Shown here: positions 2,741 through 45,055 of the stretch, piece by piece
How positions within the stretch are numbered: the stretch's first letter is position 1
Layout of the letters: each line of letters begins with the position of its first letter
The notes under the pieces: generated by a model
Seen by the model: only the letters and a program-made list of their open reading frames with translations
Told to the model about the DNA's origin: nothing
Database searches by the model: none
Assembly (NCBI GenBank): GCA_905250025.1
Contig: CAJNOJ010000078.1
Location: 248,001-312,000 of the forward strand
DNA: 64,000 nt
Source: Adineta ricciae
Lineage: Eukaryota > Rotifera > Eurotatoria > Adinetida > Adinetidae
Reading direction: 5' to 3'
Position numbers and translations under genes: made by a program

Positions 2741-5700
2741 ATGCATTCGCAGTATTGGATATTTTCTATTATGATTGTTTTTCTCAATGCTAATGAAGAC
2801 AACAAACCAATTACGTTACACATTGGCGGTTTGTTCGATCATGAAAATCCGTTGATGAATCATGGTCAAAAGGATCTCTATGCTGCTCAGATGGCTATTA
2901 AAGAAATTAATTCGCGTTCCGATGAATTGTTCAATAATCGTTATGTCTTTGAATTAGCATCAAACAATTCGAAAGTCTCTTGAAAAAGAAGACTGATTGA
3001 GATGAGAGAAAATGAGTGTCGTGTTTTTGTTTTAGTGTGATCCAGTCTATGCTGTTGATGCCTTCTTTCATGCGATCTTTCGTGGCCGTCAGTTGTTATT
3101 TCTCATCGGAACATCGTGTTCGTCTGAAACAAAAGCTGTCGTTCAAGTTGCCGATTATTACAATCTTATTCTTGTGAGTAGTATCTTTGAAATTGATGGA
3201 CAAACATCCGATGGATTCAAGAACGGAAATGAATTCATTTATCTAATCTAGTTTTCCCATTCGACTTCATTTATTTCTCAAGCAAATCAAACATATTCCA
3301 CACTTGTACGTCTTTCTGTTTGGGATGAAAATTATAATGACGCACGTGTTGCATTCATTCAAGCTAATAATTGGTCTCGAGTAGCGATTATCCATCAAGA
3401 TTCAATCGAACATTCTCTTGTAATAAATCGTGCGTTTCTACACTGGATCTTTATTGAATTTGCTTTGTTCATTCGAAGATGATGGCCAAATTAGCTAAAC
3501 GTTTGAACGAATCGAATATCGAAGTCATTCTAACACAAAGTGCTTCAACAGCTAATCTCACGTCAGCACTTGTAACTCTTCAAGTAAACAGATCGTTGAC
3601 AATCGAGGCTTGTCTAGGTTTGGTTTGTTTCATTCCTAGGAAAAGAAAGCTCGAATTGTTTTCGTCAACTTCGACGTTTCGGCAAGAACGATTTTCTTCT
3701 GTGAAGTCTACCGATCATTTACGAAACAATTACGCGAACGTTATGTGTGGATCTTAACTGGCAATGATTATCATTTATGGAATTTTTCGATTAATGGTTG
3801 TTCACAGAAGGAAATCATCGATGCAGCTCGTAGCCACATCATTGTCGATAGTTCATATGAAGCAAAACCGAGTTCTATTAATCCAAAGATGGTTAGTTAA
3901 TTATCGCCAGAGAAAAACATGGAAAACGAATCCAGTTTGACTGTTTAGACACCAGAACAATTAGCAGAACATGTGCAATTGAATACACATCTGGATCGAC
4001 AAACTCTACATGCGTATGATGCGGTTTGGGTGATTGCACTGTTGATCCGAATGTCAATTGGACGAAAGTAAAGAGCAAGATTCAACGAGTTTCAATTTAG
4101 TTCTTCAATTCATTTTAGCATCTCAATTGAAAGTTTTACATATGAACGAACGGATATGAGAGATCAATGGTTGGGATTATTAGAAGAAATCTATTTCATA
4201 GGAGTTTCTGTAAGTTGATGATAAGTAGGATGAATGAAAGCGACGAGATTGTTTCTAGGGTCCGGTATCATTTCGAAATCGCCGCCGACGTGCTGAAACA
4301 CTCATTAGTCAATTCCAAACTGATTCCATAGGGCAATACATTGAAAAAATTGCTGAATATTCTCTGGCGACAGGTTTAAATACCAATTGCTCGATGTGTC
4401 GACCATTAATTTGGCCAGGTAGAATCTAAAGAAATGATACCAAACTGCTAAAACTCAAACAATTCGTTTAGGCTCGACTCCGGTTGATCGTCAACGCACT
4501 GAGATCCATCGACTTATCATGAGCGGAGTCGAAATTGCGCTAATAACAACTAGCTGTATACTAGGCCTTGCATTGGCAATCTTCTTCTTGACATTCAATA
4601 TCATCAAGCGTCATCAACGGTAATGAAATAAAAAGGAAACGGAGATTAGTGCTTCGAGTACAGTTTGACCCGATTGTTTTGAATGCACCAGCTCTAAAGA
4701 TTAGACTAGATAAAATTTCGCGTTTTCTTCTCAACGAAGAGAAAGAAGAACGATACTCTTCGCATCTATTGAGTATCTATTAGAATGAGATTAGTATTTC
4801 CAATTATTGAACTTGGCATTTTCATGTCAGCGAATCGAATGTGATCATCGAAAATTTGCTGCAAAATTGAAATTCATTTGTTTGCTTAAGTTATATCAAA
4901 TTATCCAGTCCAAAATTAAATAACATGATGATTTTGGGTGCCATGCATATCCATATATCCATTCTTCTCTACGCTCTGGATGAATGGTTTCTTGCTCGTC
5001 ATTTGTTAGGACATGCATGCATAGTAAGCATTCGATTGATTTGCTTTTCTGCGATTACACTACTTCTATTTTTAGTTACGCGTTTTTCTATTTTCTGGCG
5101 GATTCTCATTACTGTTCGGCTCAATGTTTCTGAAAACCCTACGTGTTCATCGGATATTCACGTCACGTGATCGACCCATACTTCAATCTAAAGTGAAAAA
5201 TTCTCTTGCAGCTAAAAATATGCTGACAAGCAAATATGCTTTCTCTAGTTGTTGCGAGATCATCATCTCCTTTTGGTGTGTCTATATCTGTACATTGTTG
5301 ATCTAATATTTGCTGTATTTTGGCAAACATTTGATCCAAATTCCGCCCAATTCACATACAAAACGGTGCGTAGAAAAACAAATTCTTGGAACAATTGATT
5401 TTTATTGTTTTTTCTCTGTTTATTTAGGCGAAAGGAGTCAATATGGATATAATCGTCTTAAATGAAATCTACTATTGTGATTCGCGCTATCGACATAAAA
5501 TCATTTCAGTTATTTATTTATATAAGTCGCTATTTCTCGTTCTGGGTGGTTATTTAGCTGCTAAGACACGGCATGTGCATATAGCTGCTTTGAATGATTC
5601 GAAATATATCGTGTGGAGTATTTATATTGTTGTCCTCACGAGTTTATTTTCCGTTATTGTGATGATTTCGATGAAGACTTTACGAACATATGTGGTCATA

Positions 5701-34447: not shown

Positions 34448-36730
34448 CTATAAATTAGATGTCATAAACGAATTTTTCACTTCGATTAAAGTATGTTTGA
34501 TTGAATCTGCCAGTATTTGAGCATTCGTATCCGGACAATTTCGATAAGCTGTGACCACGAATGTTGTTCTATAGTGCATAGACAGTTGATAATAATCTAA
34601 CTGATCCGATATTTTCAACTTACGCCTCTTTGCCAAATCGATAGAAAACGCCATAACCATTCCAACACATTGCCATTGTTCCACCAGTAGTCGTACTGAA
34701 ACCAATACAACTCGTTGACAATATAAAATTACCACTGCCACCACTAGAAAGCACACCGGTTACAGAACTCATGAAATCTGGATTTCTTTTCTTATACCTT
34801 TTTGTCCACGAGGGATCTTTACTCAGTTCGAAAGGCTGTCCGGTCATATATGCGATCATACTTAAACCAAATAAATGCCGGTCACAACCTTGATTCTCTG
34901 AGGCTTCACTCATCAGTTCCTGATGACGTTTAGCAGCAAGATGAAACAATTTTCTCCGATCTTTGTCCTATCAATCAATTGATACATGACAATAATAGAT
35001 ACAGAACTGTCAACATTACGGTATATCGATCGTGTTGATTAGTCATTGCTCGACACCATGCAAGCGCCTCCACTGTACATGTTCGCAATGTTTCTGTTCT
35101 ACCACGAAAAAATTTTCGTGTAGCTGCAGTTTCATACGTCGCTGCGGGTTTATAGTTATGCGTTTTAAAATAAGCTAATTGAAGGCATAATTGAAAGAAT
35201 GTATCAGGATGCATGCGGACATACTGCTTTATGTCTTCTTTTGAACATTCGGTTACATTGACTACTAGAAGATCGATATCGGCAACTGAACGGCTGAATA
35301 GGTTGACTGCACGATCAATAGAAGTTGTGATCGAGTCATCGTATGTAAAGATCAATTCTTGAACTACATTTTGGTCATAGGGAACAGCAGATACTGGACA
35401 GGAAGTTCTTTGCTCAAGTGAATCTATATGCTGTTGAATAAGGTCACCGATTTGCAATGGAATAATGCCTTCGTAAGCGGAATGCTGTAATGTAGAAGAT
35501 ATCTAATATGAACAATCGATAATAAAATGATCTTTACATCACTATTTGTCACAACAAGACCATTACGAGTGACCACATACAGCATCGATCGATCGAACCA
35601 GCGTGATTGAGGATTTTTCAACATACCAATGCCGGCAGCCTAACCGATTTCTATACTTTACTATGGAAATTTTCATGGACAAACTTTACCTCGGTTAAAT
35701 TTTCCACATTCTCATTATCAAATGCATAAACACCTAATGCTTGCTCAATAGTTTGTAGATTTCTTCGATTCCGTTCATCTAAATGACATAGATGATCACG
35801 CACATCCGCCCAATCATCACGTGGCAATGCTGTCAATGCACCTAAACCAAGTCCGGACTTATGTTCGCTTCGTCCCATGATATCTTCTAACCTTCGTAGA
35901 ATTTCTGGTGGTGATAAAAGTTCGCCCGCTTGATAGAGATCGAACGTATACATGAGACCATTACGGATGACCACAACATGGGTGGGTGGTGAGTTCTCAT
36001 CTTCTGAGACTATAGGATAAAAACGAACATGATAAAACTTTCCTTTTATCTCCACTATCCTGTCCGAAAGTGCGTCGATAGTTCATCGCACCCTCGATGT
36101 GGAATTCGACACGTATTAAAATAATGCTTATATTGATACATCGTCAACGGATATTTACCCATGTATGATATCGGGTAGCGTTCTCTTAAAAAGAAAACTT
36201 GGTTTTACTCTTGATTTATCCTGTATACCATTTTTTCAAATGTACTCGCGAATATTTTGGAAAACAAGAGCGCATGCATGCATGTGTACACATGTTCGTT
36301 CAAGTTGAGAACCGGCTTTTGGTGGTATCAAACAACTGAAACCTATCATGTTTATAGTCGGTGCTATGGGTAAACGCCATTTAAAGTAGATTTCTTCATC
36401 CCACCATTTTGCTAACTAATGACATCAACACATATGTAATTTCCATTTTCATACATAATCCTACCCAATTTCTTCCATTTTCCGCCTTGCTTCTGGCTTT
36501 CAATTGTTCGTGTAACTCTCGTCCAACTCCTTTCGCAAATTGTTCAACGATTTCCTTTGTTTTAGCATAATCATTCTCATCAACAACGGCTCGTACTAAA
36601 GATAAGATATAGAATTTCGCGATGCTTTTTCTTTCTATGTACCAGAATCAAGATAACGTTCAAGTGTATGTTCCAATGTTGGCAATGGCAATGATGGTAG
36701 ATTATTATCGTATTCGAATGTCTTCTTCAT
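34448..36730 (-). CDS. Carnitine O-acyltransferase (CRAT/CROT type)
   Basis: Choline/carnitine acyltransferase family; transfers acyl groups between CoA and carnitine. The first exon starts at 36730 with MKKTFEYDNNLPSLPLPTLE, the family N-terminus. Further on: a PPEILRRLEDIM and GLGALTALPRDDWADVRDHL segment, RWFDRSMLYVVTRNGLVV, then HSAYEG, which holds the catalytic His. YETAATRKFFRGRTETLRTC and ALAWCRAMT bind carnitine/CoA. The end has TTTGGTMAMCWNGYGVFYRF and AYRNCPDTNAQIL. GYGVFYRF and the CPDTNA ending look closer to peroxisomal carnitine octanoyltransferase than to acetyltransferase, but I cannot settle this. The C-terminus SNL is at best a weak variant of a peroxisomal signal. Seven or more exons; borders 36060-36650 are approximate. 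Confidence 0.86.
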
Positions 36731-37243
36731 TGTTCTTTCATGACTTCAACAAGTATGTGTTTATTTGTCTTGAAAGGAGAAAACAATCAGCTTATAGATA
36801 ACAAAAAAAAAGAAAGATATGATCTTGCACACATGCACATCAAACGCTATCGAGATATTTGTTCGGATCATTCGCATTGGAAATCGATTTGTAATGATAA
36901 AAATTTTCGTTAAGTCTTGTCTTTGACAGTTATTTATTTTTGAAAACCAATGAAAAGATTTTCGCCGAAAACGTAACCTTCACTAGCGCCATCAGAATTC
37001 TTTCTTGATTGGCCCTCTCTCGTCAACGATGGACAGCCAGACAGTCGAAGCAGAAGAAAAAGAAAACGGAGAACTCAAACTGAGCAAGATAGCAAACAGC
37101 TAAAGAAAAAAAGCTTTTATCATACATTCATTTTTGTTTTGGTGCGAATCTATTTTAGATCATGATTTAAAAGTATGCAAATGGTCATTTTATTAAAATA
37201 TGTGATTTAAATCTGGTGTTTTTCTTGCTTTCTTCTCTTCAAT
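36731..37243. other. Divergent intergenic region
   Basis: About 510 bp between the starts of the carnitine acyltransferase (-) and ceramide synthase (+). No coding frame. It must hold both promoters; no TATA box or other motif stands out. Confidence 0.5.
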
Positions 37244-38514
37244 ATGTGGAATGAACATTTCTGGCTGCCAAGAAATACAACTTGGAGAGATTTCGTCGAA
37301 CTCGAACAACAGGGTATTCGCGTACCACGTTTTCAGGACCTTTTGTACGTCTATCCATTGGCCGGTGTACTTTATATTCTAAGACTTTTATTTGAACGAT
37401 ATATTGCTCAACCAATTGGACGATCGCTTTCTATACGAGAGTTTTCCAAACGTTTGAAACATGATACACCTCCCTTAGCAAAATTTAGTGAATCATTTTG
37501 GCGTTTTATTTTCTATCTAAGCGTGTTTATCTACGGACTTGTAATTCTGAACGATGTAAACATGTGCACATGTCTCAAAAGTCTTTCCAAGAAGTTTTTT
37601 TCTTTTTTAGAAATCATGGATTTGGGACACTCGTCACTGCTGGTTAAATTATCCTAATCATCGTTTAACAAACGATGTGTTTTGGTATTACATGATTGAA
37701 CTTGCATTCTATTGGTCACTAGTCTTTTCACAATTTATCGATGTTAAACGAAAAGATTTCTGGCAAATGTTTCTTCATCATATCGCTACAATAGCACTAC
37801 TTTCATTTTCTTACATTGTCAATTTTGTTCGTATTGGAGCGCTGGTACTCGTCATACACGACTGCGGAGATTACTGGTTGGAGGTAAATGCTTACATTCG
37901 ATACTAAAAATAGATAAACTCTTTCATATATGTGTTATTTTTCCAGTGTGCAAAAATGGCGAAATATGCTAAAGCACAAAAAATATGTGATACATCATTC
38001 GGAGTATTTGCACTAGTATGGTTTATAACACGTCTTTGTTACTATCCATACAAGTACGTATCGATTAACAAATATGTATGAGTTATAAAAGATAACAGTG
38101 TCTGGTAATATGTGCACTTCGATTGCATCGGACACGTTTCACACTTCAAGGTTACACTAACAGACGTGACCGAATTTTCTTCTTTGTTGTTTAGATTGAA
38201 AATCGTAGAAATTTGTTTCGTTTAGAGTGCTGTATACTACAACATTTGAGGAATTAAATATCCTTGGCTTGTTTCCTGCTTATTATGTATTCAATGGTCT
38301 TTTAATTCTTCTTCAAATTCTTCATTATTTCTGGTTTTATCTTATTTGTCAAGTGGCAATATCGGCGCTGAAAGCCGGCAAAGTATGCACATATTCTTAC
38401 GTTCGTCTTCATCTGATATTCGTTTCGTTTTTGTCCTAGGTCAGAAAAGATGAAAGAAGTGACAGTGAAGATAGTGATGGTGAAACCACAACTGATGCTC
38501 GCAAAGACAAGTGA
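37244..38514 (+). CDS. Ceramide synthase (TLC/Lag1 domain)
   Basis: Five exons (37244-37555, 37611-37883, 37947-38053, 38226-38382, 38440-38514), 307 residues. It N-acylates sphingoid bases in the endoplasmic reticulum. The N-terminus (MWNEHFWLP) and TM1 (LYVYPLAGVLYILRLLFE) precede the TLC domain: FYLSVFIYGLVIL, WYYMIELAFYWSLVF, and the Lag1 motif FLHHIATIALLSFSYIVN followed by VLVIHDCGDYWLE, keeping the catalytic HH and the HD. Only a short IREFSKR remnant stands where CerS2-6 carry a homeobox-like domain. The tail RKDERSDSEDSDGE is an acidic Ser cluster like the CK2 sites of mammalian ceramide synthases. Acyl-chain preference cannot be read from sequence alone. Confidence 0.92.
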
Positions 38515-40756: not shown

Positions 40757-43700
40757 ATGTTAAGAGAGTTGTTTTATAGAAATCCGACGAAAATGTACGT
40801 AGGAGAATCGATAGGAGTTTTCTTTTTCAAAGTGGAAAGTATATTCATTCTGTTATTGAATAGGAAAGTGTTTATTGCTCTTGGTGTACTTGTCGGAGCA
40901 CTTCTCATTTCAACCATTGTCCTAGCTGCTCTGTTAGGCAATGCAAAGAAAAGTACACCATCAACTACAATAGGTAAGCAACATTTCTTTAGCAAAATAT
41001 TGGACTAAAACTCTCGAATTCATGTTAGCAACAAATGATGAGTTATGTTTAACACCCTATTGTGTGAAAGCAGGTGAGATGTTTGTGAATAAGAGACGAC
41101 GTCGAAACGATTTTGAATCATTTTTTCTAGCGAATTATATTTTGGAAAGTATTGACGAAACAGTTGATCCCTGTGAAAATTTCTTTGAGTTTGCTTGTGG
41201 AACATGGTTGAAAAACAATCGTATACCTGACGATGGTAAGACGAGAAATGAATGTATGACATTGAAATGAATTTGATTGGTTTCTAGCGGAATCACAAGA
41301 CACGTTCAACGTCCTACGAAATCAATTGGACAATGATATCGTTGGTATGAAAAGATAGTATCTAATAATTAAAAAAAAAACGTTGATGCTTTGATGACAC
41401 CTTTTCGAGGTTAAACATGTCTTTTGACAATCTATTCGTCATTCTTCATTTGACATGACTTAAGAGCTTAATTTACGATCATGAATGTCATTACTCATGT
41501 CGAAAAAAGATGACTTAATCGATGTACTTTTGATTTTTTTTTCAAGAGCTTTGATTCTCTACCGATTTGCACTTAGATATCTTGACCCTACCACTTCCAA
41601 CTGACATGACGAATATTCAATGTATCAACAATACTCGTGTTCTCTATGATTCGTGCGTTGATGAAGCGACCATTGAAACAATCGGTGTCAATACGTTGCT
41701 CTCTACAATCAACACCGAGTTTGGCGGTTGGCCAATACTTCAGAATTCCGCGTGGAATGCTTCGACGTATAATCTAAGTGTTTTACTACAAAAATTACGT
41801 GAATACAATCAAAATATAATCTACAGTTTTGGAACGTCTATCGATGATCAGAATTCTACTGTTTATTTCGTTCGAGTAAGATTAGCTTTCGCGTTGAATT
41901 ATTTCTCATTTGAGTTTTGAACAAATAAAGGTTTCGCAAAGTGATCTCGCTTTGGAACAAAGAACACGATATGATAATGAAACAAGTGTCACTAATGCTT
42001 ATCGACAATTTATTTATGATTTAGCATCTTTGTTGACGAATGTTACAAACACGACTCAGTTGCAGCAAGATGTGGATGACATTTTCGCATTTGAAAAGGA
42101 TATTTCACGAGTAAAATCTAACGTTTTGTTTCATTAATCTTTCCTATGTCAAGCATATTTAGTATCATCTAACACCGGCAGAACAACGTGCTAAACAAAA
42201 TGAAACTGTTCGTACAACGATCGGTAATCTCTCGCAAACTTTCACCACCGATGTAAACTATTGCTCTTCTTGTTCATCATACTACTTTTCTCGTATGAAT
42301 TTAGTTTGAATTCACCAATTATTTACGACAAGTTTACCTATCAGCAAATGTCACATTGAATGACAGTGACATTGTTTCAATCAGTGATTTGGATTTTCTA
42401 CGAAATGCATCGGAAGTCGTATCACAATCGCAAACTCGCGTTATACAGAACTATGCTATATGGCGTTTTGTCATGAATCGTGTTTCGGATTTGCCCAAAC
42501 GTTATCGTTTGACGCGAGAAGCATTTGATCGAGAATTTCGAGGTACCAGTTCACAGCGCGCACGTTCAATCGTCTGTGGAAGTTTTGTTAATAACAACAT
42601 GGGATTTGCCGTATCGAAAGTTTATGTCGCTCGATATTTTGATGAAAATGCAAAAAATCAGGTAGAGCATTCTTCCTCAAAACAAAAAAAAAGTGATGAA
42701 CTTCTTGTCGATATTTGATTTAGTCATCGGAAATGATTAGCAACATTCGAAATGCTTTTATTGAAATGGTCCAAAACTCAACATGGATGGATGATGATTC
42801 GAAAGAGAAAGCTATAGAAAAAGTATCACGCACATTCCGTTTCCCGATTGATTTTGCTAAGATTTCTTCTGTTCAAGGCCAGGGCAATCGATGAACAGAT
42901 TGGTTATCCAAAATATGTTGGCGATAGTAATACAACTGAATTGGAACGGATATACTCTGCCGTAAGAAAGAGTTTAACATGTTCATCTAGCAGTCATCTT
43001 TTTGTATATTTACAGTATACTTTCAATGGATCATATATCTCCAATGTATTGAAACTATTACAAATCAAATCTCGAGAAAGTCTTCAACGACTTCGTGAAA
43101 CGGTAGATCGAAAAGCGTGGGGTACAAGTCCACCGACTGTTGTCAATGCTTTTTACACTCCATCAAGAAATCAGATCAGTAAGTAGTGATTTGTTTGCTT
43201 CTCATATCACCGATGTAATTATGTTATTCACAGGTTTCCCCGCTGGTATATTACAGACACCATTTTTCCATAAGGACGCACCCAAGTGAGTGTCTTTGTT
43301 TTGATGATCTTTAATTGATGAAAATTATTCATTTATTTCATATAGATATCTTAACTATGGTGGTAAGTTTATGTCAGATCGACAAACTTTCGATAGAAAA
43401 TGAAGCATATTATTAGGAATTGGAGCAGTTATTGGCCATGAAATCACTCATGGTTTCGATGATAATGGTCGTCAGTTTGATAAAGACGGAAACCGTGTGC
43501 CTTGGTGGTCACAAGAGACTATCGATAAGTTTATTGAGCGTAAAGCATGTATAGTTGATCAATACAGTAATTATACTGTCGCTCAAATTAATAAAACAGT
43601 AAGGAATTTGTGACCATTTTCTTCATCAGGCAATTCGGTATCGTTTCAGGTGAATGGTAGTCAAACTCAAGGAGAAAATATAGCGGATAATGGTGGAATA

Positions 43701-44472
43701 AAAGAAGCATTTTATGTAAGTTATGATTTGAAGTCGATCTCGTATGAAAACAAAATGCTAATATTGATAATTTAATTCGAAACAATAATTTGTTTCACGT
43801 CTAGGCATATAAAAAATTATCCTTGACAACAAATGATATAAATCTCCCTGGATTGAAAAAATATACGAGCGAACAATTGTTTTTTATCTGGTTTGCTCGC
43901 ATACGTTGTTATGCAGAATACACTGATTACGTAGCGTATGTAAAGCGATTGGCGAAAAAGCAATCGACTGGTCATGCCATTGATGAATATCGGTAGTTCG
44001 ATTTGTATTTTATGTCTTGATGTTTGATGTGTTTGCTTTTTTTATTCGTTTGCTATTTCGTTTGTATATTCATTGCATGTGCATGCTTGTTTGTTTGTTT
44101 TTATAGTCTTACCGAAATTGGACGAAAGCGAATGGAAATGTCGATAGACGACTACCCGGTTTGACTAATTATACAAGTGAACAGTTGTTTTTTATTAACT
44201 ACGGACAAGTCTGGTGTTCGAAAATGACAGATGCCAATGCATTGAATAGAGTTCTCATAGGCGTCCATTCACCTGGCCAATTCAGGTATTCTCACGTCCT
44301 GACAGAAGGTTGATGTGTTGTGAATTTTGTTCGATGTTATGAGCAAACGATATATTCCACTGTTTCCTTTAGAGTTATCGGTCCAACATCGAATTTTGAA
44401 GAATTTGAGAAAGTGTTCAGTTGTACATCTGGTCAAAACAATAGTCCAGCGAAAAGATGTAGTGTTTGGTAA
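40757..44472 (+). CDS. M13 (neprilysin/ECE-like) zinc metallopeptidase
   Basis: Type II membrane peptidase in about 18 short exons. Exon 1 (40757-40794, [12 protein letters not shown]) splices at GTACGT to 40864, which encodes the signal anchor [20 protein letters not shown]. The ectodomain begins [10 protein letters not shown], then [21 protein letters not shown]. Later come [28 protein letters not shown], the active-site helix [19 protein letters not shown] (HExxH) and [14 protein letters not shown] (third zinc ligand Glu). The end is [15 protein letters not shown] and the family C-terminus CSVW. Many NxS/T sites. The penultimate coding exon is present twice in tandem (see separate entries). 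M13 enzymes cut small secreted peptides, including neuropeptides. The neighbouring neuropeptide gene is suggestive, not proof, of a link. Confidence 0.9.
43805..43992 (+). other. M13 gene alternative penultimate exon, copy A
   Basis: 188 bp, starts in phase 0 (GCA TAT AAA) after CTAG and ends in phase 2 before GTAGTT. Its product includes [20 protein letters not shown], then Cys (IRC) and HAIDEYR. It aligns along its whole length with copy B and keeps the conserved Cys plus the His and the Arg six residues later that in neprilysin-family enzymes contact substrate. Confidence 0.8.
44074..44085 (+). promoter_or_regulatory. Tandem TGCATG element between alternative exons
   Basis: Two adjacent copies of TGCATG (44074-44079 and 44080-44085) sit in the 114-bp intron between exon copies A and B, about 20 bases before the copy B acceptor, followed by GTTTGTTTGTTTTT. 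UGCAUG in RNA is the binding site of Rbfox-family splicing factors, and position upstream of an exon usually promotes its skipping. The function here is inferred. Confidence 0.4.
44107..44285 (+). other. M13 gene alternative penultimate exon, copy B
   Basis: 179 bp, starts in phase 0 (TCT TAC CGA) after TTATAG and ends in phase 2 before GTATTC. Product includes [20 protein letters not shown], then WC and VHSPGQFR, the canonical M13 wording. Joining copy A to copy B would shift the frame and hit a TGA 19 codons into B, so a full-length protein can use only one of the two. Confidence 0.85.
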
Positions 44473-45055
44473 TCAATCACAAGAACAAGAAAGTTTTTTT
44501 TTTCACCTTCGTCGAATTTCCAAAAGAACGAAAAACACCGTAATCTTTTACAGCTTGACAAAAATCTTTTTTTTTATTACGGTTTGAAATTATGTCAATC
44601 TAATAAATGATAAGAAGTACACTCTAAGCACAATTATCTTCTCTTGTCTTTTCATTTATTATATATCAATAGAATAAAACCATCGTACAACATTTCGATG
44701 ATATTCATCTCGTTGAAAGAAAGTCGATTTGGAAGTCGGAACTATTCGATCATTTTCTAAAAAGACGAAAAATATCAATTGAATCAATAGACAATCGACT
44801 TGCTAGAAGATATACGAGAATTAGAAGTGCAATGCAAAAAATATAATAACATGCTAAGGAATTTGATAATCAAAGAAAAGAAATAATCAAATCGTTTTTT
44901 CCGGGAAATATATGTATGTATTGATATATAATAGCGTTAAGAGCAATTTTCTTACATGAAAGTGTCTGAAAAAATTTAGCCGACATTTCTGTCGACACGT
45001 TATTCCTAATTGAAGTTACTCATTGACAACAGATGCGACAAGACAAGCGGTAAAC
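44473..45055. other. Convergent intergenic region
   Basis: Lies between the 3' ends of the M13 gene (AATAAA at 44602) and the TBC-like gene. A short plus-strand coiled-coil-like run (LLEDIRELEVQCKKY, near 44795-44845) is open only briefly and has no start or splice support. Nothing else is seen. Confidence 0.45.

Follow-up and report, generated by a model that had tools for sequence, protein, structure and literature searches.

We analysed a stretch of 64,000 nucleotides from the bdelloid rotifer Adineta ricciae (contig CAJNOJ010000078.1, here C78, positions 248,001 to 312,000; hereafter the window), which contains a gene of the M13 (neprilysin-like) peptidase family with a tandem pair of homologous exons, A and B, close to its 3' end. 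The gene lies at 40757-44472 on the forward (+) strand, as do all features described below unless stated otherwise, and its splice model has 19 exons when both A and B are counted. The gene product presents the M13 domains, an N-terminal hydrophobic anchor, VNAFY, the HExxH motif (HEITH), GENIAD and a C-terminal CxxW (CSVW). The gene start follows the public model (P0122) annotated for the homologous copy on contig C51, and was adopted because the start at 40793 that we dropped for exon 1 reads ATG TAA on C51. With this P0122-type start, the spliced gene is open over 743 residues when it contains exon A (form A) or 740 residues when it contains exon B (form B). The match to neprilysin spans query residues 63-751 (E = 6.9e-142) and 14 solved M13 chains match. 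The Pfam domains PF05649 and PF01431 were found on P0122 and on P0123, a protein of Rotaria sp. Silwood2, and exon A by itself falls under the Pfam cut-off (19 vs 24.5 bits).

The shared upstream exon (43650-43715) carries GENIADNGG and ends in phase 0. It is followed by exon A (43805-43992, 188 nt, WxARxRC ... HAIDEYR), an A-B intron of 114 nt (43993-44106) in which 66 of the 114 nucleotides are T and GTTTG occurs six times, exon B (44107-44285, 179 nt, with the canonical QVWC ... HSPGQFR) and the shared last exon (44373-44472), which encodes CSVW and then a stop, with AATAAA downstream at 44602 and 44673. An earlier note on this DNA had described A and B as tandem homologous exons of 188 and 179 bp, both running from phase 0 to phase 2; this holds, with AG/GT borders on each, and the end that it gave for the upstream exon (43716) is corrected to 43715, the donor GTAAGT beginning at 43716. 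The two exons share 21 of 47 aligned residues (two-sequence BLASTP, E = 4e-11) and a 53-nt DNA repeat (75%). Either exon joined to the last exon stays open to the CSVW end. As the earlier note had claimed, using both copies shifts the frame: A and B joined at their full borders meet a TGA at 44162-44164, 121 nt before the junction of B and the last exon. Omission of both exons leads to an early stop as well. The exception to this frame locking is an internal donor of A (43938-43946, TAT/GTAAAG; the exon would end at 43939, in codon 45), which keeps the frame with B. Read-through of A leads to a TAG stop completed by the first bases of the A-B intron. Neither this in-frame donor nor the stop straight after A had been considered in the earlier note, nor had a UGCAUG pair between the exons. 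Finally, the full donors are weak on both haplotypes (1.8 and 3.3 for A, 3.2 and 2.8 for B) relative to the other 32 donors, on which the score was trained (median 8.3, range 3.4-10.6), and this fits regulated exons.

The copy on C51 differs by about 7%, and in this copy both exons are open with the same phases and intact splice sites. The synonymous divergence (dS) between C78 and C51 over exons 1-15 is 0.135. Because this value equals the mean dS of homologs (0.135) in the A. ricciae genome paper (PMC5916493), we regard C51 as the homologous haplotype. Between the haplotypes, exon A has accumulated seven silent and two replacement changes, with a ratio of nonsynonymous to synonymous divergence (dN/dS) of 0.07 (p = 3.8e-4 against neutrality). 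The ratio is 0.21 over exons 1-15 and 0.74 in the last exon (two silent and six replacement changes). Within 43650-44472, replacement sites differ more between haplotypes in exon B and the last exon than in exon A.

The earlier note had named a copy A broken in close relatives as grounds for giving up the exon pair; exon A is present in two Rotaria species, Rotaria sp. Silwood2 (P0123) and Rotaria sp. Silwood1 (P0005). The exon A segment of P0123 is identical to that of the window at 43 of 63 residues, a level like that of the shared part of the protein (426/641), and exon B is identical at 39 of 60 residues to P0003, a B-type Rotaria protein. In a tree built from 18 sequences of the segment, all four A exons group together with support 1.00, and a long branch leads to their clade. 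Since this clade includes Rotaria, the duplication predates the Adineta-Rotaria split. These sequence comparisons indicate that exon A is old and coding. By summed bits P0123 fits C51 and C78 best (855 and 785; next 761). For P0005, the summed bits are higher at C164 than at C78 (174 vs 155) and the identities are reversed (86 at C78 vs 73 at C164), because introns break its match at C78; its orthology to the gene is likely from these matches.

We found no further exon-A pair elsewhere in the genome: of 17 matches, two were exon A itself (on C78 and C51) and the 15 others were 40-54% identical, and the 14 of these that were inspected (all but one on C9) lie at B-type positions. The genome is rich in M13 genes (42 matches to PF01431), several of which occur in close contig pairs, as expected of a degenerate tetraploid. 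In another M13 gene (C497:36500-43500), the B-type exon and the last exon are locally and recently duplicated, either truly or through an assembly fault; a copy of 98% identity lies some 2.4 kb further along, and a partial copy sits beside the first (positions 2873-3172, 3095-3394 and 5273-5572 within that region).

We then compared the residues encoded by the two exons, using neprilysin numbering transferred by alignment to neprilysin. The zinc site, VNAFY, GENIAD, Arg717, the disulphide Cys and the CxxW end are common to the gene and the neprilysin/M13 family (human NEP, ECE-1), and form B retains the Trp693 of neprilysin. Exon A retains Cys694 and Arg717, its Arg being aligned to residue 717 of 1dmt in the structure model, and His711 is kept in three of the four exon A copies (window, C51 and P0123). 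The substitutions in exon A are Asn688 to Trp, Gln691 to Arg, Trp693 to Arg and Gly714 to Asp, and a few additional residues precede His711. Among 121 aligned relatives (P0001-P0120 and P0123), position 693 is Trp in 114 and Arg in three. These are P0004, which is a B-type Adineta steineri protein, and the A exons of both Rotaria species. The B-type segment of P0004 reads YAYTRC, such that the change of Trp693 to Arg is also observed outside exon A. PHEX carries Arg at the position of Trp693, which would match exon A; this likeness would be a convergence at one residue, and PHEX is a separate vertebrate gene whereas form A would be a splice form. The P1' preference is hydrophobic in M13 enzymes generally and acidic in PHEX (PMC2259306). 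In neprilysin, Trp693 moves on filling of the S1' pocket and Gly714 adjoins Trp693 (PMC4908401). In an engineered neprilysin (G399V/G714K), replacement of Gly714, for which exon A has Asp, alters the cleavage sites; the engineered residue is Lys, however, and the authors credit G399 with the larger role (PMC4121237).

The A-B intron contains a tandem UGCAUG UGCAUG (44074-44085), located 22-33 nt 5' of exon B, and both motifs are also found on C51. The gene's 17 remaining introns are free of UGCAUG, and GTTTG was found once in each of two of them. Simulated 114-nt introns contained at least two UGCAUG in 9 of 20000 cases and at least one in 637 of 20000, and at least two were found in 208 of 63886 sliding windows of the real sequence. 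The motif was absent from the 110 nt 5' of the B-type exon in all six paralogue places scanned, out of eight listed. An RBFOX-like RRM is encoded at two loci (C36 and C4; 62-86% identical by piece to the query). Elsewhere in the window, overlapping UGCAUG on both strands at 36273-36284 form the sole other dense cluster besides 5012-5021.

The anatomy of the locus, the intact second haplotype, the silent-biased change in A and the presence of exon A in two Rotaria species support the mutually exclusive pair that the earlier note had proposed, and its idea of two specificities has gained concrete residues (Trp693 to Arg and Gly714 to Asp). We infer that A and B are probably both expressed, as exons that exclude each other within a single gene for a membrane M13 peptidase, and that their alternative use would change its cleavage preference. 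Each exon would supply the segment from just after the GENIAD zinc helix to Arg717, such that splice choice would swap one wall of the S1' pocket and leave the zinc site unchanged. Form B would be a neprilysin-like enzyme with Trp693 and a hydrophobic P1' preference. Form A, in which Arg replaces Trp693, Asp replaces Gly714 and the helix-loop preceding His711 is longer, would have a different and probably polar or acidic P1' preference; alternatively, its Arg693 might be paired with Asp714. Frame locking would eliminate the double and empty products, and an RBFOX protein bound to the UGCAUG pair might block the acceptor of B and thereby favour A. Two other ways of selecting one exon were rejected. 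Base pairing between introns is one of them, as duplex energies were not below those of shuffled sequences (in 180, 25 and 154 of 200 shuffles for the three intron pairs, the energy reached that of the real introns). The other is steric exclusion by a short intron: the A-B intron of 114 nt exceeds most of the gene's introns, the majority of which are 51-62 nt long.

Several observations weigh against this main reading. Exon B presents three silent and eight replacement changes between haplotypes (dN/dS 0.75, indistinguishable from neutral) and is thus without visible constraint on this comparison, the contrast in substitutions between A and B being itself non-significant (Fisher p = 0.07). The pair was seen side by side in A. 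ricciae only, Rotaria being known from proteins, and the B-type Silwood2 protein P0003 comes from a separate locus (78% identical to P0123). The conserved Cys and the His-x5-Arg that the earlier note had reported in both copies are found in the window, but the His-x5-Arg is not general, as Tyr replaces His711 in exon A of Silwood1 (P0005). In addition, the window as a whole is not poor in UGCAUG (44 found vs 36.5 expected) and the pair was met by reading the intron rather than by a planned test; for these reasons the motif result is suggestive only.

The remaining points against the main reading are also those that favour two rival readings. It is conceivable, but unlikely, that A is an insertion exon whose shortened version (45 residues, donor at 43939) is joined in frame to B to give one longer protein. 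The public model P0122 on C51 is annotated with precisely this shortened A followed by B, its 135 nt preserve the frame, and in the window copy the internal donor scores 3.9 vs 1.8 for the full donor of A. Gene prediction in A. ricciae drew on RNA-seq and BRAKER (PMC7943196), which lends weight to this annotation provided that P0122 comes from that prediction. However, the codon required to begin GT encodes Leu in the A exons of both Rotaria species, so the internal donor is impossible in these copies. The 18 residues past this donor are kept in Rotaria at 11/18 and 10/18, as expected of coding sequence, and the product would contain the LPGL...Cys segment twice consecutively. The second rival makes A an alternative last exon ending at the stop that follows it immediately (a TAG in A. 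ricciae), with a shortened protein that lacks the CxxW end. Both Rotaria A proteins terminate at exactly that point and the stop of the window is in the same place, but a phase-2 donor GTAA, GTAG or GTGA creates such a stop automatically. None of the nine kinds of poly(A) hexamers sought was found in 43993-44486, AATAAA being present only after the true last exon. Moreover, the 3' border of A corresponds in position and phase to the junction of B with the last exon, and the product would lack the fold's final Cys and Trp, which makes this reading improbable. A third reading, in which A is a poison or decaying exon whose inclusion with B triggers message decay, or a relic, appears very improbable. 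The stop met in A+B lies 121 nt ahead of the last junction, a usual trigger of decay, but conservation of the protein is unnecessary for a poison exon, and A is coding with a dN/dS of 0.07 between haplotypes, while its retention in Rotaria matches that of the remaining protein.

Mutual exclusion of A and B with RBFOX control would resemble known systems. In FGFR2, either of two alternative exons, 8 and 9 (IIIb/IIIc), likewise keeps the frame under regulation by Fox and ESRP, and Fox2, acting on UGCAUG in the preceding intron, keeps exon 9 repressed and so favours exon 8. The motif is there, as here, located between the exons near the downstream acceptor in GU-rich surroundings (PMC2880598). 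In contrast, FGFR2 swaps a ligand domain of a receptor and not a catalytic pocket, and the regulation that we propose is deduced from motifs alone. In egl-15 of C. elegans (exons 5A/5B), RBFOX proteins repress one exon through UGCAUG in its upstream intron (PMC3585155, PMC2880598), although the gene and domain differ and a partner factor, SUP-12, is involved. More tentatively, it is possible that an ancient RBFOX-driven pair lets one enzyme alternate, according to tissue or state, between a hydrophobic P1' preference like that of neprilysin and an acidic one like that of PHEX, and that the Rotaria exons have been split between two gene copies.

Two neighbouring open frames were noted in the window: one at 34975-36082 (-) resembles a carnitine acyltransferase and one at 37211-37657 (+) a ceramide synthase. 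Word-match searches of the open-licence literature on exclusive exons in neprilysin/M13 genes, bdelloids or metallopeptidases brought up no M13 gene that uses them. Exclusive exons and RBFOX control are already known; swapping an M13 pocket by these means appears new. Peptide hormones are usually matched to peptidases through many genes. If our interpretation is true, a single gene would instead alter the substrates of a signalling peptidase through splicing, for which a pocket residue and a splicing factor can both be named, and the gene would provide a natural two-form enzyme for the determinants of P1' preference in the neprilysin family. It would also be an example of exon choice under RBFOX in a rotifer, and would allow one to follow whether the two exons of an exclusive pair end up in different copies after genome duplication.
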